Shown: piece by piece, positions 14,186 to 35,002 of the stretch | How the letters are laid out: each line of letters opens with the position of its first letter | Position numbering within the stretch: position 1 is the first letter of the stretch | Source of the DNA: Polychytrium aggregatum | Taxonomy: Eukaryota > Chytridiomycota > Chytridiomycetes > Polychytriales | NCBI RefSeq assembly: GCF_025602895.1 | Contig: NW_026516419.1 | Coordinates: forward strand, 1-49,419 | Length of the DNA stretch: 49,419 bases | Direction of reading: 5' to 3' | Program-made: the position numbers and the translations under genes | Notes under the pieces: generated by a model | Databases searched by the model: none | Seen by the model: only the letters and a program-made list of their open reading frames with translations | Told to the model about the DNA's origin: nothing

Positions 14186-17100
14186 CTACAAGTATCTCAT
14201 CGAAAAGCCCAAGCGCTCAAACGTATCGCACGACTTTTTCGCCGGCATGGGCGGGAACGGTTGGTTGGTGTGCAGAACCCGCATGAGCGGGCGTACGTCT
14301 TTGCCCTCGGTCTGCCACTCGCTGACCAATTTGGCCGCATAGTCGTCGAACTGCTCGTTTTCACGATCCATTTGGTTGAGCAGAGCAAGCTCCCGCACCA
14401 GCTCGCTGGCTTGCTTAGCCTTCTTGGTCTTCATGTTCTCTTGCTGCAGGGATCCCACAGGATGATGCGTCACCGATTCGCAGTCAAGACATCAATGATA
14501 CCGTCGCAGGAAGCCATGTTGTCAGTCACGAACTTTCAGACTCCTGAGGCGAGTGTCCCAAACACACGCAGTGTAGTGCCTCCCCCCTGCACTTCCGCCA
14601 AAGTCGTCGACCAGGCCCTGGTACCTCTCTCCAAGCTCAGAGCCATTTCGGTCGGACCTGGCGCGATCCTACCCTCCGCCCAATGCAGCTCAGCCGCCCT
14701 AACCGCTCACCATTTGTTTCAGGTGGAACTCTTGAAGCTTGTGGCAGGCATCTTGGCGCCTCTGCTGCTTCACTTGGTTTTCAGCAAGCTGTTTGGCGTA
14801 TTTTTCTTCGATTTCCAATCGCGACCGCTTGTCCGCTTCCACTGCTTCGTCCTCACTCTTCTTCTTCAGCATCAGCTGTGGAAAACCGCGTTTGTTCGAG
14901 TAGCCCAAGAATATCGCCGTCGCCGTCGGGTGCGACATCACGACGACAGTTATGCGATTTCCAGAGTTTAGATTCACCATATCGGCCCGAGAAGCACCTG
15001 TTGTGGTGCCTGTGACAGTTTTGCGGAAGAATAGATTCCTTCCGGCTTCCATCTGACAAACCATACTCTGGTTCCAGCGCGCCTCTATCCATTCGCACAA
15101 GTCACCCCACCCAGGCTCGTCTCACCTGTGCCAGACGGAACTCTTCAATCTCCTTGATCATCTTGGCCGTCTTCTTCTTCCTTTCGATTTCTTTCTGGAT
15201 CTGGCCACCCCAGTCCGCATCGGCATTCTTGGCAATAAATCCGTCAATGCGCTGGTCCTTCTCTTTGGACATTTCCTCCTGCTGACGAGCAACTTCCTCG
15301 AGCCGCTGCTGTCGGATCCTAGCGCCAGAGAGAGACAGAGCACGAGCTCGCTGAGCATGCATCGACACACTTGGCACAAACCAGCAGCCTTCGCGCTGGG
15401 TCGCTGGTGATCCGTGCAGAGGAACCTACTGAAACTTTGTCCGCTCTGCATCCTTGCGTTTGTTGTTGAGAGATAGCTTGACGGTGTGAAAGCGATGGTT
15501 CCCGTCATCAACGCGCTGCTCTTCCTCTCGCTTGCGCCGCTCGGTTTCCTGTGAAGCTCGCAAGAATTAGTCCGGTCTAGGCCAGCCTCAGTTGATAGCA
15601 ACGGCGGAGTCTGGTCAGCCGCTCCGATGCCAACCAATACGTCGCAGCTCGACTCATCGACCATGGGCCCAGACACCAGCTGCTGGTGCAGAGATGCGAG
15701 TCGACCAAAGCAGCATAGCCTGCGATCAAGCCGATGGAAATCGGGTGACGCAAAACATGCCCACCTCTTTGTCCCGCATGTTGGCCGAGAGTCCTCGTCG
15801 AATCTCCTCGGTCTGCTTTCGGTGTTTCTCGACATCCTTCTCCTCCATCATGCGCTCGTCGTGCAAGGCTTTCTCGTTGACTTTTGAGTAAAAATCCCTC
15901 TCTTCCTGCAGCACAGAGACCTCATCAGCCACCCATCCGACCCCAGGCGCCGCCCGGGCGACCTTGATGCATGTTTCAAGCACACTGAATATGCTTGTTT
16001 CGAGTAAGTTGTCGGGAGGCTCGCGCGGTCTGTACCTGCTTTAGCCGCCTTTCTTCATTCTCTCGATTGATGGCTTGGTGACGCTGAAACTCTGCGACCT
16101 GCAAGGTGGCCAAATAAGCTTGTTCCCGCGCTTCATCCAGTTTTTTGTTCTTCAACTCTCGCTGCAGTCGCTCTTTATCGTCTTCCATTTGCCGCACAGT
16201 CTTGACGGCCTCATCCTCTTGCGCTTTGTAGATGATTTGCTGCTCGCGCTCGTGGAGCACATTGGACATGAGCAACTGAGCATGGAGCGCCTTAACTCGC
16301 GATTGCTCGACATATTGCATTCGCCGGGCCCGCTCGACTGCTATCCGCCGTTCGTCCTGCCGCACGAGCTCCCAGGCCGCATCGACTTTCTTGCGCTCCT
16401 CCTATTGTGAGTACATTGACGATCGCAGATCTCGGTTATGCGCGGTCGGTTTGTTCGCTGTCAAGAACGCTGCCACACTGCTCAGCAGACGCTCATGACA
16501 AATTACAATCTCCGGCATCTCATTCGATCACGACCAGAGAGTGAAGTTGCAACATGCACATTGTTTCTATTCTGAAGATAAAATCGCCAGTCGATAGGAT
16601 GAAAGGCAGCCATACCTCGGTCGACTTTTCTCGCTCGGCCTGGGCAGCCAACCGCTTCTTGCGCTGGCCCATGATGGTGTTTTCCCATGTCTTGACGGTC
16701 TCGAGTGACTTGTGGTGCAGTTTTTCTTTCTTTATCCGCGGATTTAGAAGCCGGCCCGGAGACCCGACACCACGGCAGACCATTCCATCGAAGAAACCGA
16801 CGGTGCCAGTGTCGCCAGCAAGCATCCATAGGCGGGGTCACCACAAAGTCGCCAAGGAGTATTCATCAGTTGCAACCACCAGCAAACATGTATAGGTTGA
16901 ATATTCAGAGAGAAATGTCAGTACTGGTTGGATTGAAGCAACAACCGATCCGAACCAACACTGATGGTAAGCCCGGCTGTTCGTGCCTCTGAAGCAGCAG
17001 CACAGACAATCCGATGCAAGACCACACCGGTGCCCGGTCTGTGCGGCAACCTGAAGCAACAGCCGTCAGGCGAGAGCGAAACACAATAGCGCCACCGACC

Positions 17101-17727
17101 TCGCGTTTAAATGACTCGCGAAACTCGTTCAGCGTCTGGTCATTCAGGGCTGCCTTCCGGATCTTCTCCAACTCAGCTTCGTTGATGAGAGTGTGTCCGA
17201 TGGCGATGTTCATCGAGGCTATGCTCGAGGGCGGCGCCTCGTAGGAAACAAAATCATCGGGTGCTGCCGGTGTGTTGGCGATTCATGAGTGCGGAGTTAG
17301 TACCTTAGCGAGATATACTTGTGTCAGGGGGGGGGCAGTAGCAAGTCACGATGATCGTTCCGTCTGGCAGCTCGGCAGCTCGGGTATGCCGTAGGCAGTG
17401 CATAATTGGTCTCGCCGTCGCTGCCAGAAATACCCTGCTTCACATGTAGCAGCTGTTGGCTACGCTTCCTGCAAATCAGACTCAAGCGATCTATCATGGC
17501 CGAGTCGTTTGATTGCAGAGTCCGGAGACTTGCTGCCTCCACGGCATCGACGATTTGGGTCTGACAAATCTACCTGCGCTGAGATTCTTTCCATGCGGCT
17601 TGATCAGCTTGGCAATAGACGGCAGGGGCATGAGGTCGTCGTCGCAACTGTAAGGGACAAATTTTGGGGGATCTCTTCTTCGGCGGCGGCGGACGGGAGG
17701 AGGCAGAGTAACATTGATGCGATCCAT
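14186..17727 (-). CDS. CFAP210: CFAP210 (CCDC173), axonemal coiled-coil protein with TPH-type domain
   Basis: Nine exons join in phase to 557 aa: 17727-17574, 17263-17100, 16729-16616, 16401-16036, 15905-15765, 15548-15430, 15318-15126, 14875-14711 and 14443-14186. That is close to the vertebrate length as I recall it. Recognisable family segments are LETVKTWENTIMGQRKKRL, ARRMQYVEQSRVKALHAQLL and an almost continuous charged coiled coil (Trichohyalin-plectin-homology type). CFAP210 belongs to the microtubule inner proteins of ciliary doublets. Its presence argues for a flagellated zoospore. The first exon (MDRINVTLPP, six-Arg run) is inferred from phase and position; the conserved part surely includes 17213 (MNIAIGH) onward. 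Donor of intron 2 is GTCGGT. Confidence 0.88.
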
Positions 17728-18955
17728 GGGCAGAAGGTATGCCAGGGTGCCGCACAGCGCCAGTCCGATGAAAGAAGAAAAGATCAACGGTACGTCGATC
17801 GGTGGTGTCGATGGATATTCGACGTTGGTCGATATTCGCAGCAACGATTGCAGTAGATGTGCGTTGTAGATGTGCGTTGCAGACCAGCAGATCGAAGTTG
17901 CCGTTTGGGGGTGGGGAGAATCGCGGAGAGGAAAGCAAAACAAGGAGAGTCGAAAGACTAAAGATGTTATATAGGCTCGCTCAGTCTCGGTTTTGCTGTA
18001 CTGTGGCCCCTCCAAAGGAATAGATCATGGCCCGCTGTGGGGATGCGCCAAGGACAATAAGGCCAGGGCAAGGCGATAGGGACGGCCTTGGAGAGATGGG
18101 CCACATGTCCCCTTGCACGACACCACCAAACAGTCCATCGGATTACCACACCAAATGCCCGAAAAATCGACAGGGATACCTACCTCGAGCTGCAGTGCCT
18201 GCGATTGAAAGAGCTGCTGTAATGCGTCGAGGGGCCGGTGTTTGAAGGAAGTATGTCGGCACTCTTGCCCGCAACGGTGCTCTCGGGGATGATGGGAGCG
18301 TGGGCAACTGGTCGGGTGTGGGAAAGTGACGTCAGCGACACAAGTTCATCGAGTGAGTGCACCATACATATGGCAGAGAACCTCCTTCTGCGCTCATCCG
18401 CCGCTTCTCCGAGTGGCCCGGTTGGAGTAGATGGGCTGAAGCGGAGGGACTGAAACGATTCCAGGTGATTTCGCCTTTGTCACTTTGTCTGCGAACAGCT
18501 TGAGCACCAAGTGCGGCCTCCAGGTCCGAAACAGCCTCCCTACTCGTGAGGCTCGATTTGCGGAGCAGCGGCATGCGAACGGATCCATTGCCCCCAGCAT
18601 CAAGATACCTGCACGATATCTATGGTTGGGCTTTCTCGAGAATAGATCTGGCAGAGCGTCCTATCTTGAGCGAGGTCGGTCGGTAGGTAGGTGGGAAGCG
18701 GAGCTGTTTGGGCAGACTGTCCGGCGGTCGAACGGGCCATTGTTCAGTAGAGACATTGTCGTCGCTGCCCAATCATGGCCTACCTTTCTTTCCCGACGAC
18801 CATTCCCGCAATCGATAGTGGCTATACTCTGCTCAGACGAAGCGAGACACACTGCCCATTATGATTATGCCAACAGTCAAACGGCCACTCAGAAAACCCT
18901 CCCGGCAAGGCCATCGGGTCGCTTCTCCGTGCCCAGTACTGAGCGGATACTTTGA
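17728..18955. other. No gene recognised
   Basis: ORFs on both strands (for example plus 18485-18955) show no domain or codon pattern that I can support. Part is probably the CFAP210 promoter. Confidence 0.45.
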
Positions 18956-19430
18956 TCATGTTGCGTACTGCACAGTCGCCGCATCACAACCCCTGCCCCT
19001 ATAGCTACTCCAGAAAGAAGCTGGATAGTGCCCATTTGTGCTATCTGGCACTTCCACCACTGCCTGCTGGTTTGGGATCACTGCCCTGAGATGCGATATG
19101 CGTTCAGCCATTTGGACAGCTCCGTACAAAATGTGGCTTCTTAAAGTCAAGGTCATCGGGGGCAAACGAGTGTGGCCGTGTGTTTTGGGCCTTGGGGGTC
19201 TCTGGCGATTGTGGAACTGGTCAAAGTACCTGGCGAGCCTGAATCGCTGTGCGCTCGATGGATATCGTTTCCCTTGCTCCCACGATGCACTCCCAATAGT
19301 AGTCACAGTGCCGATCTCTTTGGATATGCTGGTCGGTCATGGTGGATGGGCGTGTATTCAAGACCAGGAAAGGCACCATTTACTCTCGGAATCAGAGTGC
19401 CTTGTTTCGTTTTAGACGCACTGCATGGCT
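18956..19430 (-). mobile_element. Degenerate Fanzor (TnpB-like) relic
   Basis: The minus-strand peptide SASWEQGKRYPSSAQRFRLA then RYFDQFHNRQRPP aligns with NASWKQGKGYASSPRRLRFA then KYFEQFIHHQRRPP in the RuvC-II region of the 22-25 kb Fanzor. The DNA of 19190-19340 aligns collinearly with 22665-22810. The reading frame is lost just downstream (toward 19150) before the zinc ribbon. Upstream, a frameshift or stop separates the MTDQ segment from the VTTIGSASW segment. No ORF spans the domain. This is a pseudogene fragment of the same family, more diverged than the main copy. Confidence 0.8.
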
Positions 19431-19848
19431 GAAACCTCATATCAGATTGAGTAAAATCCGGTTCGGGAAGCTGAGAAGCGGTGAACGGATCGGCGGAAGC
19501 TCTCCCTACAGAGACAAATACATGGCAACCCGGACGGCATATGCAAATAAATGAATGTCCTGGTCCAGAACCTCAATGTGATGGAAGGCGGCGCCCGAAC
19601 AATGTGCATCGCTGGCTAGGGCGACCATTGTTTCTAACTGTGATTGACTGCAACCCGATCGCTTTGTGTGCGAAGGGTCCTGAAGGAGCGGTGTGCTCCT
19701 GGAGCGCCTTGAGCCTTCTGCAGCCTTGCATCGCCCTTTACCTCGACCCTGAGAGAACGACGACGATACCCGAGTAAAGGTTCGTCGAGGACGAGGAGCT
19801 GATCCAGTACTCCGAAATGTCGCTTACATTCATATTTGGTGCAGAGTC
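19431..19848. other. Upstream of the claudin-like gene
   Basis: No gene recognised. Part may be further decayed Fanzor-element sequence upstream of the relic, but I could not align it by eye. Confidence 0.35.
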
Positions 19849-21120
19849 ATGACAACAATTCCCAGATCACCGTACTGGTACCTACTGATCCTGCACATCA
19901 AGAGGCTGCAGCGATCTTCAAAAGATGAACGCCGCATCAGAGTGACTGCGTTCCAGCGAATTTCCCTTGCCATGATGGGGCTACTGGGCTCGGTCTTGCT
20001 GCTGGGCCTCTCGATCTACTCTGCAATATCGGATACTTGGGTGTATTCGCGCAGCTCATCCGGCACCGAGACTCGATACGGGCTCTTCCAGGTGTGCATG
20101 ACTCGAGGAAGCTGGTCAGGCTGCCAGCACTGGGAAACGATATGGTAAGCATAGCGATAAAAGTCACCAAAGAAGTGCATTGTATAGCTCAGTCGACTTG
20201 GCAGCGAAGCACCAGGGCTACAGAGCCGTGGGTGCAGCTGAGCCGAGCAACGTATCCAAAACTCGCTGGCTGTTCGCGATGAGTGCGAACTCTTTGTTTA
20301 TAAATCAATTTGCTTTCTTCGATGGGCCCGATTGACTGATCGGCCGGGGAACGATCCGGTCGGGTGGTCACTTGCCGGCCGGCATGTACGACTCGCAGCC
20401 AGAGCCAACTGCTGCGAATGTTCCTTAATACCGGACACAGCTCCTCCCATCTATCTAGCTTCCAAGCCAGCTCAGCAGCGTGCATCTCAGCGCCAGCTGT
20501 GCTTGTGATCATGGTTACTGGAATCATGTTTGGAATCCTGAGCATCAGTAAGGCCCGCTGCTTCGGCGGATGTTCTTCGGGAATCGAGTCGCTGGTTGTC
20601 CGTGCGCCATTGGGCTCTGGGCGCGAGAGTAACCTTGACGTACTACCACCAGTCCTGCAGATTGTTTACTTGCTGGGGACATTTGATTCCAAGGTCGTCA
20701 CCAAGACCTTCTGCACTTGGATTTGCACATTCGCTGCACTCTATGGTACGAGCACTGCTGCACCGGCGTGTTGGAGAATCGCAGTCGGCAATATCTATGA
20801 TTCAAATGCTGGGTGCGTTTCTGTTGAACATGGCACTGAGAATGCTGTATTTTCCGGCGGTTGCGTTCCTCCCAGGATTCTGCCAAATGGTGGCATCGGT
20901 TGCAATGGCCGGGGCATTCAGGAACGCCATCTCTCACCTGAGCTCGCAGCCATCCACTGCGATCTACAGCAACGCCAACGCACAGCCGGTGCTCGGGACG
21001 GGCGTGATGATTGCTCGAATGGGCTGGTCCATGATTTTTGTGCACACCATCGCGCTGGGATCCATGTATGAGGGGTTTCGGGCATGGTCGAGAATGGCCC
21101 GAGAACGCGGCACATTGTGA
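19849..21120 (+). CDS. Four-transmembrane protein, claudin/PMP22- or SUR7-like
   Basis: Starts at ATG 19849. Exons 19849-20144, 20459-20547, 20653 to about 20693, and about 20785-21120 join in phase to about 253 aa. The third intron may instead be shorter, keeping more of 20694-20745. TM1 is MMGLLGSVLLLGLSIYSAI. The first extracellular loop has W, then GLFQVCMTRGSWSGC, the W-GLx-C-C signature of the claudin/PMP22 superfamily. TM2 is APAVLVIMVTGIMFGILSI. TM3 and TM4 lie in the last exon (QMLGAFLLNMALRML and GWSMIFVHTIALGSMYEGF). Topology suggests a plasma-membrane organiser or cell-wall/eisosome-type protein. Function is not known and the superfamily call is by motif only. Confidence 0.6.
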
Positions 21121-21533
21121 GGAATCGAGAGCAGATAGGGGGCAAGCGGAAAGCCCACAGCGCCATGCACTGCGCTTTTCGTGGGCTATATGTCGCAATT
21201 GAATCTTTGCTCGAGTGAACGATAAATTACAGCGCAACGGGGCGCTCCGAACACGCTTCCGACTGCAACTGTTTTTGTGGCAGGGATACACACACATGCA
21301 AAATCCAGAGCGACGGGGATAGCTCAATGAGACCCGATTGGTGAGCGCGGATTGCAAATGGCGGTGCTTGACTGTAGCATCGGGTGTCCTGTTTGATTTG
21401 GAAGGACGGCGTTGCGATGAGGCTGCATATTGGGTGACGACGGGCCGAATGGTGGTGAATTGCAGCGACAGAACTGTATAGGTTTAAATAGTGCGCCGGC
21501 GGAATCCCTCGATAACGAGGTTGGGTTACACCA
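21121..21533. other. Intergenic before the tRNA cluster
   Basis: Nothing recognised apart from the immediate 5' flank of the tRNA genes. Confidence 0.45.
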
Positions 21534-21606
21534 GGGGAATTAGCTCAGATGGTAGAGCGCTCGCTTAGCATGCGAGAGGCACGGGGATCGATACCCCGAT
21601 TCTCCA
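21534..21606 (+). tRNA. tRNA-Ala (AGC)
   Basis: 73 nt with a complete cloverleaf. The acceptor stem GGGGAAT pairs with ATTCTCC. The D-loop contains box A (TAGCTCAGATGG). The anticodon loop CTTAGCATG carries AGC. The T-loop is GGGGATCGATACCCC (box B). No intron and no encoded CCA are seen. Confidence 0.96.
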
Positions 21607-21613
21607 CTCATCC

Positions 21614-21686
21614 GCCCGGCTAGCTCAATCGGTAGAGCGTGAGACTCTTAATCTCAAGGTTGTGGGTTCGACCCCCACGTTGGGCG
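21614..21686 (+). tRNA. tRNA-Lys (CTT)
   Basis: 73 nt. The acceptor stem GCCCGGC pairs with GTTGGGC (two G-U pairs). The anticodon stem-loop TGAGACTCTTAATCTCA carries CTT. Box A TAGCTCAATCGG and box B GGTTCGACCCC are intact. It lies 7 nt after tRNA-Ala. Confidence 0.96.
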
Positions 21687-21690
21687 ATCA

Positions 21691-21764
21691 GCTCCTATGG
21701 CGCAATTGGCTAGCGCGTTCGGCTGTTAACCGGAAGGTTGGTGGTTCGAGCCCACCTAGGAGCG
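21691..21764 (+). tRNA. tRNA-Asn (GTT)
   Basis: 74 nt. The acceptor stem GCTCCTA pairs perfectly with TAGGAGC. The anticodon loop CTGTTAA carries GTT and the T-loop is GGTTCGAGCCC. It lies 4 nt after tRNA-Lys. With so little room between the three genes, each probably relies on its own internal A/B boxes. Confidence 0.96.
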
Positions 21765-22329
21765 ATTCATTTTTCCAGTTTTGCAGCCAGATTGCTGTTG
21801 TCCCTGCTCTGCTCTTCTCGCCGTCTTCCAGCTCTCTCCCATCATATCCCAATCGCATGGCAGCTCGCCCTGTCTGCGGTGACTGCTTCCCAGCGGATGC
21901 TCTCTTGTCTGTGGCTGCCCATAGTGCTGTGGCGCATGCTGCACGTGACACATTGCCACCTGACCGCTGGTGTCTCGCCCAGCAGCATCCCTTTCTGACA
22001 CTATGAAAAAATTTCTTGTTAAAAAAATCAGCGAGAACGAAAAAACGCGCTCTCGGAGCCACCTCGGTCGGCGAGAAGAGCAGTCTCTGGCGAGAGACCC
22101 CCGAGGGAAGGCGAGAAGCCTCTCGCCGTCACACACACACACTTTGCACAAGGGAGTCAAACACCTCCCATCGACCATCCCAAGAGGGATGGCAACCCCG
22201 AAGTGGACTGCCCAGAATATGGGCGACCCGGCATCCACTGTCGACATACTCAAGGAGCAGTGCGAAATACTTACAGTCCATCCAGAAAGAAACAGGACAC
22301 TCTCTGGTTTCATATGTCTGAAGCCTGCT
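21765..22329. other. Intergenic between tRNA cluster and Fanzor element
   Basis: A (CA)n run lies at about 22131-22142. No gene recognised. A minus-strand ORF running through from the Fanzor 3' end is discussed as a possible displaced C-terminal tail. Confidence 0.4.
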
Positions 22330-25026
22330 GACTGACTGTAGGCCCCAGCGAGCAAGCCGTGCGATTGTTTCCCGTCTTCGTTGGCAATCTCTTTGTTGGT
22401 TTGGGAAGCACAGTCTTGAATACACTCGGTCGATCTCCTGTGGCGATGATCGACTGGCATACCGAGATCATGTTCCGTGAGGCATTGATGTCTCGATGTG
22501 TTTGTGTGATGCATTAACTCGACTCTCAGGACAACTCCATGGTGAATCGATATCAAGATGCTCGGGTGACTCAAGTCGCTTGAATTCCCGGCAGTGTGAG
22601 CACACCTGGGATGTGTTGAACTCGTTCACCGAGCACACATGGATCTTGGAGACGGATCGGTCTGGTGGTCGTCTCTGGTGGTGGATGAACTGCTCAAAGT
22701 ACTTGGCGAACCTGAGTCTCCGTGGGCTGGAAGCATATCCCTTCCCTTGCTTCCAGGATGCATTCCCAAAGACAATCACCACTTCGGTCTCCTTTGGTGC
22801 CTGGTCGATGACTTGCTTGCACATCTCGTGGACAGTGCGCTGTCGCTTGCTGTGGAGATCGAGTCGCTTGAATCGCCGTCGCCGGGTCAGGCTGAAGTAC
22901 AGCTGTTTGTCCAGCATGTCTCCATCGAACACATGGCGAATGTATCGCAGGAAGGAAGACACCCCGGGGATCTTGGGACTTGGTGTGGTGCTCATCCATT
23001 GCTGCAGACCAAGGATCTTGTGGGTGCTCTGGATCCACTTGGTCGCCTGGGTGGTGCCACATCAATGCTGGTACTCCTTGTTGGAGAACGACACGATCTT
23101 CTCGTTGGCACGCTGTGCCTTGGTCACCTTGACACCGTCTTGCTCCTGGATGGATGGTTGACCGGGTGCCCGAATGACAGCGGTGAAGATCGATCCCACA
23201 CCAGGGTCGATCCCGATCCATGTGGTCCGAGAGTCGTCGATGGGACCGACCCTGACCTGGATCCTCTGCTCGGGAGTGAGTGCGCTCGCCTTGTCGTCCT
23301 TGTCTGTGGGTTCTGGCTTGACATCAGGATCCTTCTTCTCCAGGATCTTGTATCTGAGCGTGGTGATCGAGCACCCGACTCCATCGGTGGTGATCTCGCA
23401 ACCAAAGAGCTGCTTTCCCTCCTCCCTGGCATCAAAGAGTCTCGGATCCAGCTTGAAGTTGGTCTGCCAGAAGGTCTCTTGCTTGGTGGTGTCGTTGACC
23501 TTGGTCTTCAGGTCGTCCCACTTGAGACCAGTGCCAGTCTGGTATCCAAGGATTTCCCACAGTGCTTTGGTGTCGAGCTTGATGTACTTGGCTCGGGCAT
23601 CGCAGAGCGGGACCAATGTGCACTGTGCTCGAGGGATGTTGAGACGCTTCTTGGTCTGGGCAAGCCGGTCGGTCAATCGCTTGATCCGCTTCGTGTTGAC
23701 AGTGATCTGCTTGCACACCTCCTCGTGCTGGGTCTGGAGATCTTTGAGTCTGTCAGCCCCGATGTGGTGGATGGGTTGACACATCTCTTCGTTCAGTCGC
23801 CCACGCTCTCCTTTCAGATCATCGGTATCCCTCGCGAGCCTGGGAATGATCATCTTCTGAAAGACCACCATGAAGAGGGCCTCCTTCAGGTGGGTCAGGC
23901 GAGAGACCTCACTGGCCAGAATTGGTACGACTTTGTACAGGTCCTGGTGGCTTTCGTACCGAAACTCATACAACTGGTCGGCATGGTGGGCGTAGGCTCT
24001 CTTCAGATCAACGAGGAGTGTCTTGGAGAGGGGATTCTCCATCAGCTTCATACACTCATCGACGTGTGTATGACGTTTCACATCCTTGGGAGCAACCAGG
24101 ACCAGATTGCAGAATCGACGGAGGAGAGACCAGTACCGATCGAGAATATGGGTCTCGCAGTTGACTGCATAGGTCTTGACAGCCAATGTGAGGACCTGTG
24201 ACCCAGTACCCTTTGGAAGGGACACTGGAGGCAGGATACACGATTCACTCCATGTACTTCGATACAGCTCATAGGTATCGAGGATGTGCCTGTCATCTTC
24301 TGGGGTGTTTGTCCTGACACCCACTGTTCCTGTCTGCACCATATTGAAGCACTTTCGAACAAACGCGGGTTCACTCGACGACACGGTGGGGAGAGTGATA
24401 CCCTTGTCCAAGCACCGCCTGAGATGCAGCTCCAGGAGACGAGATGCTTCGTACTGCACTTGAGTCATGGCTCGGACAGTCTCCTCGATCTTGTCGTGCA
24501 AGGCATCGTTCTTGATGATGGCATCGAGGGTGCACTTGACGGTGGAGTACTCGGCCTTGACTTGCTCGTTTGGGCCACAGGCAGGCAGGGTAGAGCTCCA
24601 GAGTGGGTTCTTCTTGGTACACAATGAACTGCTGCTTTTGGCATGACCCACTTGCTTGCACGTGGCACATACAGGGACCTTGGGTGCTTGGCTGACCATT
24701 TCAGCGACCGAGGCAGAGCCAGAGGCAGGGCTGCTGTCGACTCTGGCTGTGCACTTCTTGGTGAAGGGTCTGACGTGGTTGGTCAATCCACAGGAGGGGC
24801 ATGATTTGATGACGGGCTTCTTGGCCACAGGAGAGTCATTGGGTGATCCTGGGTCGGGGTCGGGGGTGCCTTTCTCTTGGGAGCCATCTGGCGAGAAAAT
24901 AGCGACGATGGCTGGTTCTGCCCTTGGGGAAGAAAGAATCTCCTCAAAACCAGCGCATTTTGGGCTGGCAGAGATACTGTGCAGTGGCGTCCTTGATTCA
25001 GATCCAGAAACGCATCGCTCGCTCAA
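22330..25026 (-). mobile_element. Fanzor-bearing element
   Basis: The unit is defined by the Fanzor coding region plus about 140 bp of 3' sequence (22330-22467). Part of that sequence (about 22350-22440) is also present in the relic at 4632-4715. Homology beyond the stop codon shows that the element extends past the apparent ORF end. I could not see terminal inverted repeats or a target-site duplication, so both boundaries are approximate. The left limit could lie closer to the tRNA cluster. Confidence 0.7.
22468..24887 (-). pseudogene. Fanzor (eukaryotic TnpB-like RNA-guided nuclease), disrupted
   Basis: One minus-strand frame from 25026 to 22468 (853 codons) carries Fanzor features in order. 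Two zinc knuckles C-X2-C-X4-H-X7-C lie at 24801-24619. A helical middle region follows (about 130-560). RuvC-I is TTWIGIDPGVGSIFTAVI (Asp at 23208-23206). RuvC-II/zinc region has FGNASWKQG, then VNEFNTSQVCSHC (Glu near 22623). The end is WSCPESRVNASHKHI. Defects: TGA in frame at 23064-23062 (context CAT TGA TGT, compatible with CGA to TGA). The second CxxC is incomplete. ESRVNAS stands where RDVNAS is expected, so the RuvC-III Asp is missing. The frame has no early ATG. ATG at 24887 begins MAPKRKAP in the +1 frame, suggesting a start-proximal frameshift. Probably inactive, recently dead. Published fungal Fanzors, including one from the chytrid Spizellomyces, are RNA-guided DNA nucleases. Confidence 0.88.
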
Positions 25027-25472
25027 TCAGTCGTGGGAAGACATCTTGTCAAGGTGAGTCTTGCCTGATAGCCAAACGACCATGTCATCTCGCTGACACA
25101 CAGCCACGCTTGACTAGGTTTCCAACCAGAGAGATTCAGATGGTGGTGGTTCTTGTCCGCAATCGGAGTGGAGCTTCCAACAATGATACAATTGGTCATT
25201 CCTCCACACCAATTGCCCACCACCACCGTCAATCGGCTCAAGGTGATACCAAATGCCGTCAACCGACCATGGCCGGATTCCAACTTTTGCTGCGCCACAT
25301 ACAACGTGACTTTCAGGTGACCGAGATGAGCAGCCGCGAGGGGCCGGAAAAAATTGATAGTGTGAGGCGCCCTCATCCAACCCGCTCGCCCGCCCCATCG
25401 ACCACTCACAGCCAGCCCTCCCTGGCACAGGCCATCTCGCTGTTCCTCTCTTGGCCCCCCCCTTTCAACGTC
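25027..25472. other. Divergent region between Fanzor and NF-YC
   Basis: Contains the NF-YC 5'UTR/promoter (CT-rich just upstream of its ATG) and possibly the Fanzor promoter or element edge. No gene recognised. Confidence 0.45.
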
Positions 25473-27292
25473 ATGTCTGACCACCACCCGCACCACCCCG
25501 AGAGCACCCCCATGGACGGCTCCTCCGGCACAGTCTCGGCCCTGCCAGGCGGCGCACTCGATGGACCCACTCTCGCCAATCTCCCGGATTCGCAGCAGCA
25601 GGTCAACAGCATGGTGGCGGCGTTCTGGGAGGAGCAAGTGAAGATCATGAACGAAGGCAAGCATGACTTCAAGTTCCACCAGTTGCCGCTGGCTCGCATC
25701 AAGAAAGTCATGAAGTCTGACGAGAACCTCAAGGTCGGGACCGGTGGTGTGGTGCTGGCTTGGGTGCTGGCTCGGTCCTGTGCATGCCCTGCTGCGGATA
25801 CGGCAGAGCGAGCTCATGTGTCTCGAAATTGGCCAACCACCAAACACCAGGCCGCAGAGTTGTGGGCCGATAGCGATCCTCATAAGGCATTGCCGGGTTG
25901 CTGGGCACCCGAGGCTACGACCTCCCTCCTTGGGTTATGATCGCTTGCCTAACCTGCTTCTTTCGGACATCTGTCGTCTTTGCTTCATCTGCAACCGGAT
26001 TGATCTCTGCCGCGGCGATCCCATGCGTCGGTGTCCTCCCTGGACTCACTCGCATCCAGAACATGGTACGCCGGTTTCTCTCGCCCGCCAACGATATCTA
26101 GCATGCACTATCCTCGGCGGTCGGCTCTCTCAAGTACCATCTATGCGCTCGCTCAGCGGATGCGTTGCTGACATCCAATATCCGTGCCCTCCCACTATCG
26201 CAGATGATCAGCGCCGAGGCGCCACTTATTTTCTCAAAGGCGTGCGAGATTTTCATTCTGGAGCTCACGATGCGCACCTGGATCCATGCCGAGGAGAACA
26301 AGCGCCGCACGGTTCAGAAGAGCGACGTCGCTTCCGCCGTTAGCAAGGCCGATGTTTATGACTGTGAGTTTGCTCAGCCAGATATCCATTTAGACCACGC
26401 GAGTGAACTAGCAATGTGTCGCTTGGGCTCCGAAAGCACAGACGACTGACCTCTGCATTTGTCAAATAGTCCTGATCGATATTGTTCCTCGCGAGGAAGC
26501 CACCAAGCCCTCGACCTCCAAAGTGAGTCGATGAAATATCTCGCTGACACCACGAGCCGGGCAAACTGCATGCGGGCATTCCTAGCTTGCATCGCGATGC
26601 TTCGCTGACGGTGGCCGTGTTTGATGATGTAGGAACCTGGAATGAGCCAATTTGCCAACTACTATCCCCCCAACGCGCCCGCTTATGGTGTGGTACGTCA
26701 TCTCCGCGTATCAGATGCAAAAACGGGCCACGTTGTGATCCCAAACGATGCGGTATCCTCGATCCACTGCCAAAGTGTCGTCGCGCCCGCGTGAAATCTG
26801 CCTGACGATGAAGCATGCTGGCACAGCTCATTAACCGACGTCGACTTTGCCTGTGTTGGTGATGATGTTGCAACAGCCGATGGGTGCGGCGGAGCAGCAA
26901 CACATGCTCCTCTCCGGGTTTCCGGGCAACCCTCAGGTACGATAGCAATGCATATACCCATACGACCGGATCCGGCTCCGATGTACGCATGGACTGGGTC
27001 TCAGTTGGCGTTGCTCACGGCCGCTCGGTCTTGCGAATCACAGTTCCCTCGCCAAATGTACAGCAATGACGACCACGGACCAGGCGGTGTCGGAGTCGGC
27101 AGTTCGCACGATAATGCACAGCAGTTCTATCTGCAGCAGTACCAGCAGCTGCCTGGTGCAGACCATACCAAGGCGCACCATCACCCGGCACAGTACGGCC
27201 GAGGTCTCCACCCCTCACAACACATGGCTCCGCAACATCACCCTGGTGGCTACCCCACTGGCGATGGCAACCCGCCCGACTCCAAAGTCTAG
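25473..27292 (+). CDS. HAP5: NF-YC / HAP5 subunit of the CCAAT-binding factor
   Basis: Six exons close in phase to 280 aa: 25473-25733, 26204-26363, 26470-26522, 26633-26692, 26877-26936 and 27044-27292 (TAG). The histone-fold region is highly conserved: [37 protein letters not shown] joined to [20 protein letters not shown], then [15 protein letters not shown]. It pairs with NF-YB and binds CCAAT boxes with NF-YA in the nucleus; that role is family knowledge. The C-terminal tail is rich in Gln, His, Pro and Gly, as in activation domains. The first donor is the weak GTCGGG, but the join is fixed by the conserved protein. It has its own promoter facing away from the Fanzor. Confidence 0.95.
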
Positions 27293-28277
27293 ATTGCAGC
27301 CCAACAGGTCCAACCGATCGGAGAAACCCTCTGCCCAGCCAGTGGACGGCCATTTTGGATGGGGGCGCTTCGCATTGCTGTCCACTTTCCCGGTGTATTT
27401 CTCAGGCGTGATATATTCTTTCGATTCCCTCCCGCGTATCAGTAGCATCTCCAGGAAGGAGACGAAGGGAGGGAGCGTGGGCCATCTGGATTGCGTGCGG
27501 CATGGACGTGGTTCTTTGGCAGCTCGCATCGATGGAGCCTCATTTGGGCCGCCTCTGCGGCTGTTGCTGCCATCATTGGCTGATGGCGGGCTGCTGAGCA
27601 ACACGGCCCTGAATACAGAGTCCATATCCACGCTGTCTACGATGCTGCGATGCAACTGCGATGCTGCTGAACAGCACGCTGAACAACACGGGCCGATGAG
27701 CTTGATCCGGCTGCCCGTGAGCGAGCCTGTTGGCGGTGAGTCACGGGCCGCCCTGCACTCGAATGCTCGGCTCCTCGCTGGCTGGGTGGATCGATCCGGC
27801 TGCGCATGAGCCATATGATGCCCATTGTGAGCAACATCACAAGCCTGTGTGCGAGCCCGTGACTGTGCAGTGTGATGCAAATGTCATACAAGAGATAAGC
27901 AACGCCAAGCCGCCGACACTGAGACAGCGGGCACTCCCAACAGCAGCAACAGCAGCAACAGCAGCAGTTGTGTTTGTGCTGCGCACACCCGCCTTCCCGA
28001 TTTGTTCTCCTTGGATCTTGTCCGCCCCCGCCAGCGGCACCCGCCAGGCCCTATCGATCCAGCCTCGCTCTGCCGTTATCTTGCTCTTTGCCGCCGTGGT
28101 CGATCTTGGTTGACTTCGTCTTGGTCTTGGTCTTGGTCTTGGTCTTGGTCTTCGTCTTGGTCTTCGTCTTCGTCTTCGTCTTCGTCTTCGGTGCTGCCTT
28201 TGTGTGCACCTCTCGCAGCCGCCCAGCAACGACTCTTCACTCGGCAACGACTCTTCCCCCCCCCCGATCCACTCCAC
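27293..28277. other. Intergenic between NF-YC and THR1
   Basis: A short CAG/CAA tract (about 27940-27967) and a hexanucleotide repeat (separate entry) lie here. No gene recognised. The end is the THR1 promoter/5'UTR. Confidence 0.5.
28114..28190. repeat. Hexanucleotide repeat (GTCTTG/GTCTTC)n
   Basis: About 12 units of GTCTTG then GTCTTC end about 90 bp upstream of the THR1 ATG, probably within its 5'UTR or promoter. On the minus strand it is purine-rich. Confidence 0.85.
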
Positions 28278-29440
28278 ATGGCCCCCATCAAAACCATCAA
28301 GATCCGAGTCCCGGCCTCGACGGCCAACATCGGCCCTGGCTTCGATGCCCTCGGCATGGGCTTATCCATGCACCTCACCCTTGTCGTCACCATTCCAGCT
28401 TCATCGGAACCTGCCTCGGGCATCACACTCTCATACGAAGGCGATTCGAAGCAGAAGGTCTCGCTGTCGCCAGAATCCAATCTGATCACCCGCACGGCGA
28501 TGTATGTCGCCGCCGCTTGTAAATCGGCCCTCCCTCGATCAATGCACATCCACATCGACAACCCCATTCCCCTGGGCCGCGGCCTCGGCAGCAGTGGAAG
28601 CGCCGCCGTGGCCGGCGTTTACTTGGCCAACGAGGCTGCGCAACTTGGCCTCAGCCGAACTCAGATGCTGGATTTCTGTCTTTTGATCGAAGGTACGACC
28701 CAGACATGCTCCGGCTGTGTGTCGCTCGATGACCATTCAATGCCCGCTTGACTTATCAACCGCCAATGTCGTCTTGCACTCCCTAACCAACCGTAGGCCA
28801 CCCTGACAACGTCGCCGGATCGCTGCTCGGCGGATTCGTCGCCTCGTACATGCGAAACCTGCCCGATCCAAAGCTCCGGGAAAACCCCCTGGCTCTCAGC
28901 AGCTTTGACCAGTACGACTTGATCCCGGTGCCGCCCAAGACCGGCTACGGTGTGTACATGCCGCTGGAGATCTCGCCCAAGGTCAAGGTCGTTGTGGCCA
29001 TCCCCGAGTTTGAGCTGCCCACAAAGCTGGCCCGCGAGGTGCTCCCGACGGCATACAGCCGCGCCGATGTCATCTTCAACTTCCAGCGGCTCTCGGTGCT
29101 GACCCACGCCCTGGCTGCCGAGACCCCAAGAGCCGAGGTGGTCTACGAGGCCATGCATGACAAGATCCATCAGCATTATCGTCAGCACCTTGTGCCCGGC
29201 CTGCCCGAGATCCTCTCGATGAGGCCGGAACAGTTCCCCGGCCTGCTTGGTTTGGCCATGTCCGGAGCCGGCCCCACTGTTCTCGCCATCGCCATCGACA
29301 ACTTTGAGGCCATCGGCAAAGAGATGAAGCGGATCTTTGCCTCGCACATCGGACCGGATGGCCAGCCCATTCAATGCCGGTTTGAGATCCTGGACGTCGA
29401 CCATGATGGCGCCACATGTGAAACCAGTGTCGTGGCTTGA
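28278..29440 (+). CDS. THR1: Homoserine kinase
   Basis: Two exons (28278-28692, 28797-29440) join to 352 aa, typical for the enzyme. It phosphorylates homoserine with ATP in threonine biosynthesis (cytosol; established for the family). GHMP-kinase features are visible. The N-terminal motif is VPASTANIGPGFDALGMGL. The ATP-binding Gly/Ser loop is PLGRGLGSSGSAA (about 98-108). HPDNVAGSLLGG follows the intron. The C-terminal motif is MSGAGPTVLAI. The intron has a CTAAC branch site shortly before CCGTAG. The start ATG immediately precedes the conserved KTIKIRVPAS. Confidence 0.97.
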
Positions 29441-30097
29441 ATACCCGCGAACCTCCCTGACTCTCTCCGATGCATTAAATGCGCCTCCCCCCCCCTCCAC
29501 GTAGAAGGTTAAGATCCTGGCAGGTCGCTGTGCGGTGGGTGTGCTGTGGGTCAAATCTCCCCCAGTGCGTCGACCCGGCCAAGCCGGCCAGCAGCAGGCC
29601 AACTCCCATGTATTCTTTCGGCTTGATCAAATTCAATGTGACATTCTCTTGCTGGCACCGAATGGGTTGGATGTGCGGGCTTTGTGAACCCGTGTGAATC
29701 GGTGGAACTCCCCTGTCGGGCGATGGAATTCCACCCAGAGCATCACGCCTGCATCGTCCAGCGCCGATGCACAAATGCATGAGCTCTCCGTGCGCCATTG
29801 GTGCGCCCTCAGCACGCCCTTCCCCCGGCGCGTGCCCGTTCATCGCTTTTCCAGCTTCTCCATTGGCCCAAACCATGTGGGGGTCAGCCTTCCGCACGCC
29901 CGGATTGCCCGCCACGCCGACCGGCTGCTGGTCGCTCGGAGCCGGCTGGCCTGCCCCGCACCCTCATCTGCATCTGCATCTGCATCTGTGTCCGCTGTTC
30001 TTGGCTGGCCTGCTCGGATCTCGTCTGGCGTCCCCGCTGCTGTCGCTTCCTTCCAGCTCGAGTTAGCTCCAAGGCACCTCCTCTCGCCTAAACAGCC
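29441..30097. other. Intergenic between THR1 and the NRAMP gene
   Basis: A short (GCATCT)n run lies at about 29966-29990. The rest is presumably THR1 3' flank and transporter promoter. No gene recognised. Confidence 0.45.
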
Positions 30098-32012
30098 ATG
30101 GCAGACGACTCACACAGCACACATATCGAGCCCGGCCCGGCGCCTCGCAAGAGCGTGCTTCTTCGTTCCGAACTGCGGTCATGGATCAAGACGCTGGTGG
30201 CATTCATGGGCCCCGGATACATCGTTGCCGTGGGCTACATGGGTATAGAATCACATGTCTTTCGCACCAGCCTTGCGCTCTGTTGCCCTTGCCGCCAACG
30301 TGGCCACTAACACCGTGGTTCCTCCGTCGCTTGATGGACGCAATCAGATCCTGGGAACTGGGCAACCGACCTGCAAGGTACCGCCATCGTTTGCACTGCA
30401 GCCCCGTGTCCACCGGTGAAGAGAGCTGTGCTGCATTGGCCGATTCACTCAACTGACTTTCTGCTCAACCCACATCACAGGCGGATCCGTTTATCAGTAC
30501 AAGCTTCTATTCATCATCTTCCTTTCAAACGTCTTTGCCGTGCTGTTCCAGAGCCTCTCGGCCAAGATTGGAATCGTCACGGGGCGCGACCTCAGCCAGC
30601 TCTGCCGCAAGCATTTCCATCCCTGGCTCAACTACATCCTGTATTTCGTCGCCGAGGTCGCCGTGATGGCCACCGATCTGGCCGAGATCATTGGCGCGGC
30701 CATCTCGCTCAAGCTGTTGCTGGGCATCCCTCTGATCGGCGGCATCATTCTCACGACCTTGGATGTCTTCCTGGTCCTGGTCACCTTCCAGGCAAAGTAC
30801 ATGCGGATCTTTGAGTTCATCATCATCGTGCTGGTTCTGATGGTTGGCATCTGCTACGCCGTGCTCCTGAGCCAGAGTGCCGCTTCCGGTGTCGATGTAC
30901 TCAAGGGCTACCTGCCTCTCGACTCGACCATCTTCACCGATCCCACGACACTTTACGTTGGCATGAGCATTCTCGGGGCCACCGTCATGCCTCACAACCT
31001 CTTCATCCACTCGAGGCTCGTCCAGTATCGCTCGCCGCGACAAGACGAATCCGAGCCCGACGAGAGTCTGGACAGCCCAGGCGTGTCCGCCGACCGACGG
31101 AGCGCCGATCGGATAGATCAGATCACAACCATCGAGGACGGGGCCAGAACCGCTGCTGCCTCTATCCGCAGCAGCGTCCGCTCCAAGGAAAAGCTCTCCA
31201 CGCTTGTTGATGGCACCATCCGCGCATCTGACCCTCTAGAGACGGACCTCCGGGACGGCTCTGCACACAGCTCCGAGTTTGTCGAGAGAATCAAGAGCAC
31301 CCTGTCCTTTACTATGGTCGACTCAGCCATCGCCCTCACTTTTGCTCTCTACGTGAACTCTGCCATCCTGATCGTCTCGGCTGCACTGTTTTACTCCAAG
31401 AACCAGCAAGTGAGCGACATTCCGTCGGCCTACAACCTGATTAAGACGGCGATTGCTCCATGGGCCGCAACCCTCTTTGCCTTTGCGCTTTTCTGCGCCG
31501 GCCAGTCGTCCTCGATCACGGGCACGCTTGCTGGACAGATCGTCATGGAGGGTTTTCTGAAGCTCAAATGGCCAATGTGGGCACGACGCCTGACTACCCG
31601 TGCCGCCGCCTTGATCCCGGCCGTGGTCGTCGTCATCATCAAAGGGGATGCTGGCATCAACGACCTCTTGGTGCTGTCTCAAGCCATCCTTTCGGGGTGC
31701 CTACCCTTTGCCCTGTGGCCGCTGCTGTGGTTTTCATCGTCGAAGCATATCATGTCGATCCGCGTCAAGAGCATGAATGGTTTGTGTATCGATATGTCTG
31801 GCGAGTGCTGGGTTGGACTGGCCACACTCCATATGCCAACAGCCACTCATCTTGCTCATTAACTCTGCTGGGCTTTTGTCACAGGCGCGGCTGAATCGTC
31901 AAAGAGCTTTGCCAGTTCGTGGTTCATCACCATCTTCACCTTCCTGTCGATCCTGCTGATCACCGGCCTGGATATTCTGATGATCTATCAGGCCATTGCT
32001 GGCACTCCATAG
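30098..32012 (+). CDS. NRAMP-family divalent metal (Mn/Fe) transporter
   Basis: Four exons (30098-30242, 30348-30377, 30481-31779, 31885-32012) close to 533 aa. Metal-site motif 1, DPGNWAT (about 49-55), is made by joining exon 1 to a 30-nt microexon. Metal-site motif 2 is GATVMPHN (MPHN about 228-231). About 11 hydrophobic segments follow the NRAMP layout. A charged Ser/Asp/Arg-rich loop (about 240-315, PRQDESEPDESLDS and on) lies between TM segments and may hold regulatory phosphosites. Fungal relatives (SMF1-3) move Mn2+ or Fe2+ with protons at the plasma membrane, endosome or vacuole; which one cannot be told here. The last donor is GTTTGT. Confidence 0.95.
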
Positions 32013-32547
32013 CCTCGAGCATGTCCACTGATAGCAACACGATGTCTGTATATAGCTTGTCAAGCAGAAGGAGAACCAAGCTCTCCCGATGTCTCCCAGA
32101 GTAGCCGTCGGTACCGCTGAAGAGGATCTTTGCCAATCGTGGCTGCTGTTGTCGCCAGCGTGCATCCAGTGGCGTCCGCCCCGCGATTTTGGCATGTAAT
32201 CTATTCCTTTCTTCGTCAATTCAGTCGAGCTTGGCACAGGGGTTCTGCTTGAAGTGGGCGGAGTCGAGGTCGGCCTTCTCTCCCACGATCGACATGGAGG
32301 GCGGAGGGATGCTCCAGCGATCCTCCACGAACCAGACCCTCGTGCTGCTTTACAGTTTTACATCATAGCGGCATGTCGGCAAGACACGATGGTGTCATGG
32401 CAATCGAATCTTATCCACGATCCATCGCACGGTCATCCACGTAGCGACACTCGTGAACGTCCTCGATTGGCGGTTGTATATTCGAGATCAAGAACAACCA
32501 CGATCAGCGGGCGCAACGCGGCTCATAACATAGCGCCATATCCGCAT
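32013..32547. other. Convergent intergenic region
   Basis: Between the stops of the NRAMP gene and BNA6. Holds their 3' flanks; nothing else recognised. Confidence 0.5.
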
Positions 32548-34336
<1,789 letters not shown>

Positions 34337-35002
34337 GATGGTGACGGCAGGCAGCGCAGACGATCTGTGTGTATTGATGGGGCCGACGGATGTTGATGGA
34401 GGTTGGAGATTGACGGAAGCCGCTGGGCACCCGTGGCTGGGATGTTCTCTTCCGACCCGTTTTCCGGCTCATCGCTCCCACGTGCCTTGGGTAGCCGTTT
34501 GCCTGTGGCCCATTTTGCAAACAGAACATCGCCAGTCACTCTGGTGGTTCATCTCTGCCACCATCTCTGCCACCATCGCTACCACCATCTCTGCCACCAT
34601 CGCTACCACCATCACTATCGTTGGCCGTCAACGCCAAACCCATGGGTGTGGTCGATATCTCCAGGTCGCGATGGAACGGCACTGTGGGCATGCTCCAGCG
34701 GTGTCGAAATGAGAGTCGATGCATGGCTATGGCCTTGTGGGTTATCGAGTCAAGTTGATGCACTATATGGCAGCCATGTCGGATTCAAAAGTGGTGTGGG
34801 CAGTCTCGGTGGACACACTCGGCGAACATGCTCATGGACAGCGCACAGTCCTCGAAAGCAGCATGCGCCGTTCATCGTGTCGGAGCCGGCGAGGATGAAA
34901 AGCCCGCCCTCGCCCGCTGCCAGTGGCCGGAGGGCATATTCAATGATCACGAGCAGCTTTTGTTGCCTGCGCCGTCGGCAATCGTCTTGAGCACGGCAAA
35001 TC
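34337..35002. promoter_or_regulatory. Shared upstream region of BNA6 and CDK20
   Basis: The two genes are divergent and their start codons are 666 bp apart, so promoters must lie here. A degenerate 12-bp tandem repeat (about 34550-34617, CATCTCTGCCAC / CATCGCTACCAC units) is the only visible structure. Confidence 0.5.
34550..34617. repeat. 12-bp tandem repeat
   Basis: Alternating CATCTCTGCCAC and CATCGCTACCAC units, about five to six copies, upstream of both BNA6 and CDK20. Confidence 0.85.

Follow-up and report, generated by a model that had tools for sequence, protein, structure and literature searches.

The Fanzor element and its surroundings

The window, i.e. the whole stretch of DNA analysed (49,419 nucleotides), is a 49-kb contig labelled C132 within the 64.7-Mb assembly of Polychytrium aggregatum, a saprobic aquatic chytrid. 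It contains a mobile element of 3,364 bp on the minus strand (21999-25362) with the termini CACTAT and ATAGTG and a single gene; the limits of the element are set where similarity among its copies ends. A 3-bp target-site duplication, TCA, is found on either side, with the left copy at 25363-25365 and the right copy at 21996-21998 (minus strand).

The main reading frame of the gene runs on the minus strand from 25026 to 22468 and comprises 853 triplets; it is interrupted once, by the TGA at 23064-23062, and closes with a stop. Two zinc knuckles of the form CX2CX4HX7C (24751-24801 and 24619-24669), both recognised from the sequence and the former with a counterpart in the homologue P0001, the RuvC-I motif GIDPG (23200-23214), NEFNTS and CSHC are all located within this frame. 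So far the result agrees with the first-pass annotation. The first methionine of the frame is not found before residue 110. The start codon with the basic N-terminus MAPKRK (24861-24887) is out of frame relative to the main ORF, as is the RuvC-III segment HRDINASRNM (22469-22498), and the description of a nearly full-length gene damaged by the TGA alone was therefore abandoned. The segment NEFNTSQVCSHC (22591-22626) carries the alternative catalytic Glu and the first CxxC, as placed by the alignment of relatives (A1), by the alignment with SpuFz1 of Spizellomyces punctatus and by the window frame itself, where the Glu of NEFNTSQVC stands six residues ahead of the first CxxC. The kept 3' end of the element (21999-22140, minus strand) is a candidate guide-RNA scaffold, in which case the guide would be taken from the flank, from 21998 downward.

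An open frame of 533 codons (22600-24201, plus strand) lies antisense to the Fanzor gene. A HAP5/NF-YC-like gene (25473-26446, plus strand, histone fold 26102-26446) is divergent from the element, and its ATG at 25473 lies about 110 bp from the 5' end of the element; the ATG and the histone fold presumably belong to one gene. On the other side, a cluster of tRNA-Ala, -Lys and -Asn genes (21534-21764, plus strand) is located 235 bp from the 3' end, and a 287-bp stretch including this cluster has a 94% similar counterpart adjoining the element at locus L014. An Rfam search of 21400-25800 gave nothing beyond the three tRNAs, and a search of a plasmid collection (near mode) gave no match.

Family membership and intact relatives

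At least 39 other copies with 89-99% DNA identity to the window copy are present in the genome; 40 copies, the window copy included, were scored out of 1,334 candidates. Thirteen of the 40 have the start, GIDPG, NEFNTS and D[IV]N together in one frame. The suggestion that intact siblings exist elsewhere in the genome holds to this extent, as these 13 copies at other loci satisfy the four motif checks. Their proteins are 853-933 aa long and begin with MAPK in ten cases and MAPHK in three. The five that entered alignment A1 also show the second CxxC.

The RuvC-I DPG is invariant in all ten proteins of A1 (D561, P562 and G563 of the intact copy L013; GIDPG at 23214-23200 in the window), and so are the alternative catalytic Glu E756 and C763 of L013. 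The DPG of RuvC-I and the alternative catalytic Glu together form the fingerprint of Fanzors (PMC10711439). With the profile of the relatives (A1), SpuFz1 (8gkh) was matched at E 1.4e-27, chiefly in the C-terminal half, and the RuvC-I Asp, the alternative Glu, the first CxxC and the RuvC-III Asp correspond in the two; SpuFz1 has DPN and not DPG at the aligned RuvC-I motif. A single-sequence search returned no Fanzor entry up to E 1. The Pfam domain TNB scores 37.8 bits in L013 (cut-off 26.3), and the two pieces of the window copy score only 22.3 and 12.4 bits. The gene is thus assigned to Fanzor1 on the DPG and alternative-Glu fingerprint and the SpuFz1 profile match, and the original identification as a Fanzor stands.

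The pN/pS ratio over 12 intact ORFs (L042 was dropped from the 13, being identical to L041) is 0.39, which indicates that most of the protein has been under constraint. Along windows of 80 codons the ratio varies from 0.19 to 0.92 with the peak at the C-terminus, where the last windows give 0.62-0.92. Five of the ten proteins in the database match list of an intact sibling are annotated proteins of P. aggregatum itself, with 77-93% identity over short stretches. Four annotated P. aggregatum proteins (P0003-P0006), with F-box, male sterility, kinase and other domains, include stretches 89-93% identical to the Fanzor and are perhaps gene models fused with the element.

Three lesions in the window copy

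The window copy carries three lesions: a frameshift after the start, the internal TGA and a frameshifted C-terminal variant. The first is caused by the length of a C-run at 24866-24862. The same length was found at L046 and L016 among 27 loci compared, and the allelic copy on the opposite haplotype (contig C375) does not differ from the window at the run. Length differences in homopolymers are a class prone to sequencing error, yet this one is present in both haplotypes and at two other loci. The second lesion, the TGA at 23062-23064, is private to the window copy in the 40-copy comparison. The remaining 39 copies lack it, and all 39 align without gaps to the DNA around it, in agreement with the view that a point change and not an indel was involved. 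The third lesion is a variant C-terminal cassette beginning SPWSCPES (22499-22545); CPES takes the place of the second CxxC, and the frame is not maintained. It is shared by six of the 40 copies (L009, L010, L011, L017, L026 and L028), i.e. the window copy, its allele and four others, representing four loci when that of the window is counted; in these neither the second CxxC nor the RuvC-III Asp is in frame.

Contig C375 matches window positions 15571-34497 in four aligned pieces with 99.5-99.9% identity. At the site of the TGA it has a sense codon, and both frameshifts are common to it and the window. The idea of an allele with an undamaged sibling is thus right in that the opposite haplotype lacks the TGA and wrong in that this allele is frameshifted twice and not intact. 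Since both haplotypes carry both frameshifts, the locus was already dead, and a recent killing by the TGA, offered at first as a possibility, is not supported. A 63-bp in-frame segment close to 24687, just upstream of the second zinc knuckle, is missing in the window and present in the opposite haplotype; such a difference, with the segment on one haplotype only, was found in three of 11 allelic pairs.

Introns were considered at three positions and rejected. The 63-bp segment consists of 21 sense codons, the 39 other copies align without gaps around the TGA, and the out-of-frame stretch at the C-terminal shift is, judging from the sequence, too short. TGA acts as an ordinary stop in the family, as was assumed at the outset, and terminates ten of the 13 intact relatives (TAG the other three). 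The earlier explanation of the TGA as a CpG transition of CGA receives no special support: in the ORF region of 27 loci, C>T or G>A singletons were found at 22 of 284 CpG bases versus 76 of 1,282 other C/G bases, and CpG decay was set aside as the cause because this shows no CpG enrichment. Judged by its reading frames, the window copy cannot make the nuclease, having a frameshifted start, a private TGA and no last CxxC or RuvC-III Asp. With its termini and 3' end whole, the element could still be movable or usable as a template.

Termini and carrier of the element

Similarity among the copies stops at CACTAT at one end and ATAGTG at the other. At best placement, the outer ten bases are without mismatch in 32 of 36 copies at the 5' end and in 33 of 36 at the 3' end, and the inverted repeat is perfect over no more than about 6 bp. 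An exact 3-bp target-site duplication was seen in 24 of the 36 copies with both ends (L018, L043, L044 and L048 lack an end and were dropped), corresponding to 18 of 27 distinct loci when haplotype pairs are counted once. The left flank shows a preference for A or C at position -4 (24/26) and for T at -3 (19/26) in 26 of the 27 loci, L037 being omitted.

The 20-base 5' terminus was found at 128 places in the genome with at most two mismatches, and the reversed pattern at none. When the best 40 of 160 3' ends were considered, 32 could be paired with one of 100 listed 5' ends and eight were unpaired. The 32 paired elements comprise 18 of full length (13 of 3.3-3.5 kb and five of 3.6-3.9 kb), 12 of 1.5-1.7 kb and two below 0.4 kb.

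CACTA elements are defined by CACTA...TAGTG termini and a 3-bp target-site duplication (PMC4158355). No transposase was recognised within the element studied here. The CACTA transposase domain PF02992 has 29 matches elsewhere in the genome; six of these loci were viewed, each with about 1.5 kb of flanking DNA, and none showed the ends that an autonomous partner would share with the element. A search for the Plavaka transposase PF18759 gave no matches and the control was likewise silent. The ends and duplications suggest that the element is probably a non-autonomous CACTA-like DNA element, moved in trans.

L026 and other copies have an insert of 366 bp some 30 bp ahead of the Fanzor start codon, with TGTCA...TGACA ends, an AGAAC duplication and a TATA-like box. 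It was considered as a solo LTR control for empty alleles and discarded, since each of its two ends occurs at 19 places and all 19 lie inside the Fanzor element by their coordinates.

Candidate guide RNA

Nucleotide diversity is 0.014-0.033 in the 3' end of the element and 0.054-0.100 in the ORF; the 5' leader is equally low (0.021-0.024). Folding of the 3' end gave z-scores of -0.65 for 152 nt and -1.88 for 302 nt, with no double changes in the covariation analysis. A guide RNA made from the element 3' end is a candidate, with weak support from folding and none from covariation.

Apparent exchange of pieces among copies

Linkage between sites within the element decays over very short distances. 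With 29 loci, one haplotype from each, and 265 common two-state sites, r2 starts at 0.545 for sites 1-10 bp apart, is down to 0.080 for 31-60 bp and stays at 0.039-0.054 over longer distances, with 0.036 expected in the absence of linkage. When the order of sites was permuted 500 times, such a decay was never reproduced. Linkage thus nears the background by about 60 bp and the copies are fine mosaics. Of 773 differences between alleles in 11 pairs, 657 involve two states that both occur at two or more other loci, compared with 7.4% for random change.

Heterozygosity in the nine pairs with both ends is about 13 times as high in the ORF region of the element (471/25,580) as in the flanks (26/18,544). 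The window pair has 13 differences in 2,881 positions of the ORF region versus one in 1,862 of the flanks. Three of the nine pairs show little or no excess, one being identical throughout and the others differing by 0.14% and 0.39% versus 0.06% and 0.32% in the flanks, and these count against a universal excess of difference in the element.

At 18 loci only one haplotype is represented in the set of 40; queries made of the joined flanks detected a second haplotype at 12 of them and a single haplotype at six. The 12 second haplotypes comprise six gaps of full length, five of 1.5-1.6 kb and one (L012) apparently split between two contigs. At five loci, therefore, a full-length element on one haplotype is opposed by a 1.5-1.6-kb deletion form. 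All six short elements examined, of which five lie opposite a full-length copy, have a common deletion junction within about 4 bp. That one deletion has come to face full-length copies at several loci is difficult to account for unless element interiors are replaced. No empty allele was seen at 23 loci (the 12 second haplotypes and the 11 pairs). This was not accepted as evidence for homing, since the 11 pairs came to light through being filled on both sides, and a lack of empty alleles would follow from old insertions as well.

In a family where copies trade pieces, a stop in one copy is neither permanent nor proof of recent death, and reading a single stop as the mark of a recent pseudogene can mislead.

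Interpretation and alternatives

Taken as a whole, the window most probably holds an inactivated Fanzor1 gene in a non-autonomous CACTA-like element, with intact kin that would be RNA-guided nucleases and with copies that exchange pieces, and we hold this with good confidence. The intact relatives would then act as RNA-guided nucleases, a guide RNA composed of the element 3' end and the adjoining flank would direct cutting of a matching site, and transposition would depend on a CACTA-type transposase that is supplied in trans and acts on the termini. Short and long pieces pass between loci, which mixes damaged with sound segments from site to site, and a lesion is no end state in this family.

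The lesions could be read differently. A Fanzor that was almost intact until a recent point change killed it would fit the restriction of the TGA to the window copy and its absence from the allele, but the two frameshifts that remove the start and RuvC-III are common to the allele, and this very unlikely reading could only be kept if both were sequence errors. Error in a short haplotig, affecting the TGA and perhaps the C-run too, is somewhat easier to entertain and still improbable: the 49-kb contig C132 is the allelic counterpart of C375 and three sites in the element (24581, 23064 and 22029) are private to it, yet the flanks of the element show a single difference from C375 over 1,862 aligned bases, so that errors are not general in the contig, and the C-terminal variant recurs at four loci counting that of the window. 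Recoding of the TGA with read-through would agree with an alignment that goes on in frame past it; a codon present in one of 40 copies, and ending ten of 13 intact ones, gives this next to no probability. Bacterial TldR proteins are nuclease-dead RNA-guided regulators, and the copies L017, L026 and L028, open from the MAPK start over 799-802 aa and missing the RuvC-III part only, might be thought of as TldR-like. Their cassette is frameshifted, with the CPES that decay would give, and occurs in dead copies such as that of the window, which makes a regulatory role highly improbable.

Ordinary ectopic recombination in an old repeat family, owing nothing to cutting by Fanzor, is the likely cause of the exchange. 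Inexact duplications at nine of 27 loci suggest that the insertions are old, which favours this explanation over Fanzor cutting; the flanks of allelic pairs differ by 0.14%, and with old insertions and similar flanks, sites filled on both haplotypes are expected anyway. Nothing decisive speaks against it. As an unlikely alternative, Fanzor itself might drive the exchange by cutting the empty allele, with repair that copies the element of the homologue and switches template. According to this model, the element would leave or be lost from a site, and a guide made from that site would let Fanzor cut the empty allele; repair would start in the unique flank, copy the element of the homologue and switch template among more than 100 other copies. 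Cut-and-copy repair guided by Fanzor is an idea discussed by Saito et al. (PMC10432273). Were it to operate here, sites would stay filled on both haplotypes while their interiors are shuffled, and Fanzor loci genome-wide would recombine as a single gene pool, where a dead copy can be overwritten and a broken cassette can spread.

Comparison with known Fanzor elements

The closest parallel is SPu-1, the element of SpuFz1 in Spizellomyces punctatus. As here, Fanzor1 is the sole gene of a short chytrid element with inverted repeats, in many copies of which only some are intact, with no transposase found between the ends and a conserved 3' end, which in SpuFz1 encodes the guide RNA (PMC3627910, PMC10432273). 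Ghost elements without the gene but with the ends are likewise known from Spizellomyces (PMC10432273). SPu-1 differs in having 33-bp terminal inverted repeats, putative TA duplications and a protein of 633 aa (PMC3627910, PMC10432273), while the Polychytrium element has CACTAT/ATAGTG ends, 3-bp duplications, proteins of 853-933 aa and two N-terminal zinc knuckles. No exchange among copies of SPu-1/SpuFz1 is reported in the parts of PMC3627910 and PMC10432273 examined.

The element shares with CACTA (EnSpm) transposons the CACTA start, the TAGTG end and the 3-bp target-site duplication (PMC4158355) but has no recognised transposase, a very short perfect terminal inverted repeat and no matched autonomous partner among those found. 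Fanzor1 genes in MuDR-like and other elements similarly have no transposase of their own and ride on DNA transposon ends, with duplications of 9 bp or 4 bp instead of 3 bp (PMC3627910). A point of likeness is found in Auxenochlorella, where a Fanzor element ranks first in abundance among the repeats of a phased diploid genome; it is called uncharacterized there, unlike the element described here, and EnSpm-Plavaka is a separate family (PMC12633428).

The terms CACTA and EnSpm have no occurrence in the main texts of PMC3627910, PMC10711439 and PMC10432273. The open-licence literature gave no match for Fanzor together with CACTA and a single preprint for Fanzor with EnSpm, which in the portion seen treats both as separate elements (PMC12633428). 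The portion seen of a paper on fungal EnSpm relatives (PMC12730594) makes no mention of Polychytrium or chytrids. A CACTA-like carrier would thus add a vehicle for Fanzor1 that was not found named in the open-licence papers searched, as far as their consulted parts go.

A survey of Fanzors published in Science Advances in 2023 may list further carriers. What Fanzors do for their host elements is a question on which a genome with many loci bears. With many Fanzor loci occupied on both haplotypes, and with intact, broken and deleted versions facing each other at one site, it provides a natural experiment on two questions: does RNA-guided cutting maintain elements where they are, and do the copies evolve together as one pool?

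Other Fanzor-like genes in the genome

A second Fanzor, about 40% identical and with an open frame of 809 codons, was found between parts of a family-1 element (L060, positions 323-2750). The TNB search, in which 150 of 663 candidates were scored, returned dozens of near-equal scores, many in frames of 700-860 codons, and these matches probably belong to the family of this second Fanzor. A frame of 477 aa occurs at L002, L003, L006 and L007 as an opposed pair on each of two contigs; its N-terminus we take to be an IS607-type serine recombinase, joined to a RuvC and zinc ribbon of the TnpB/Fanzor2 type.
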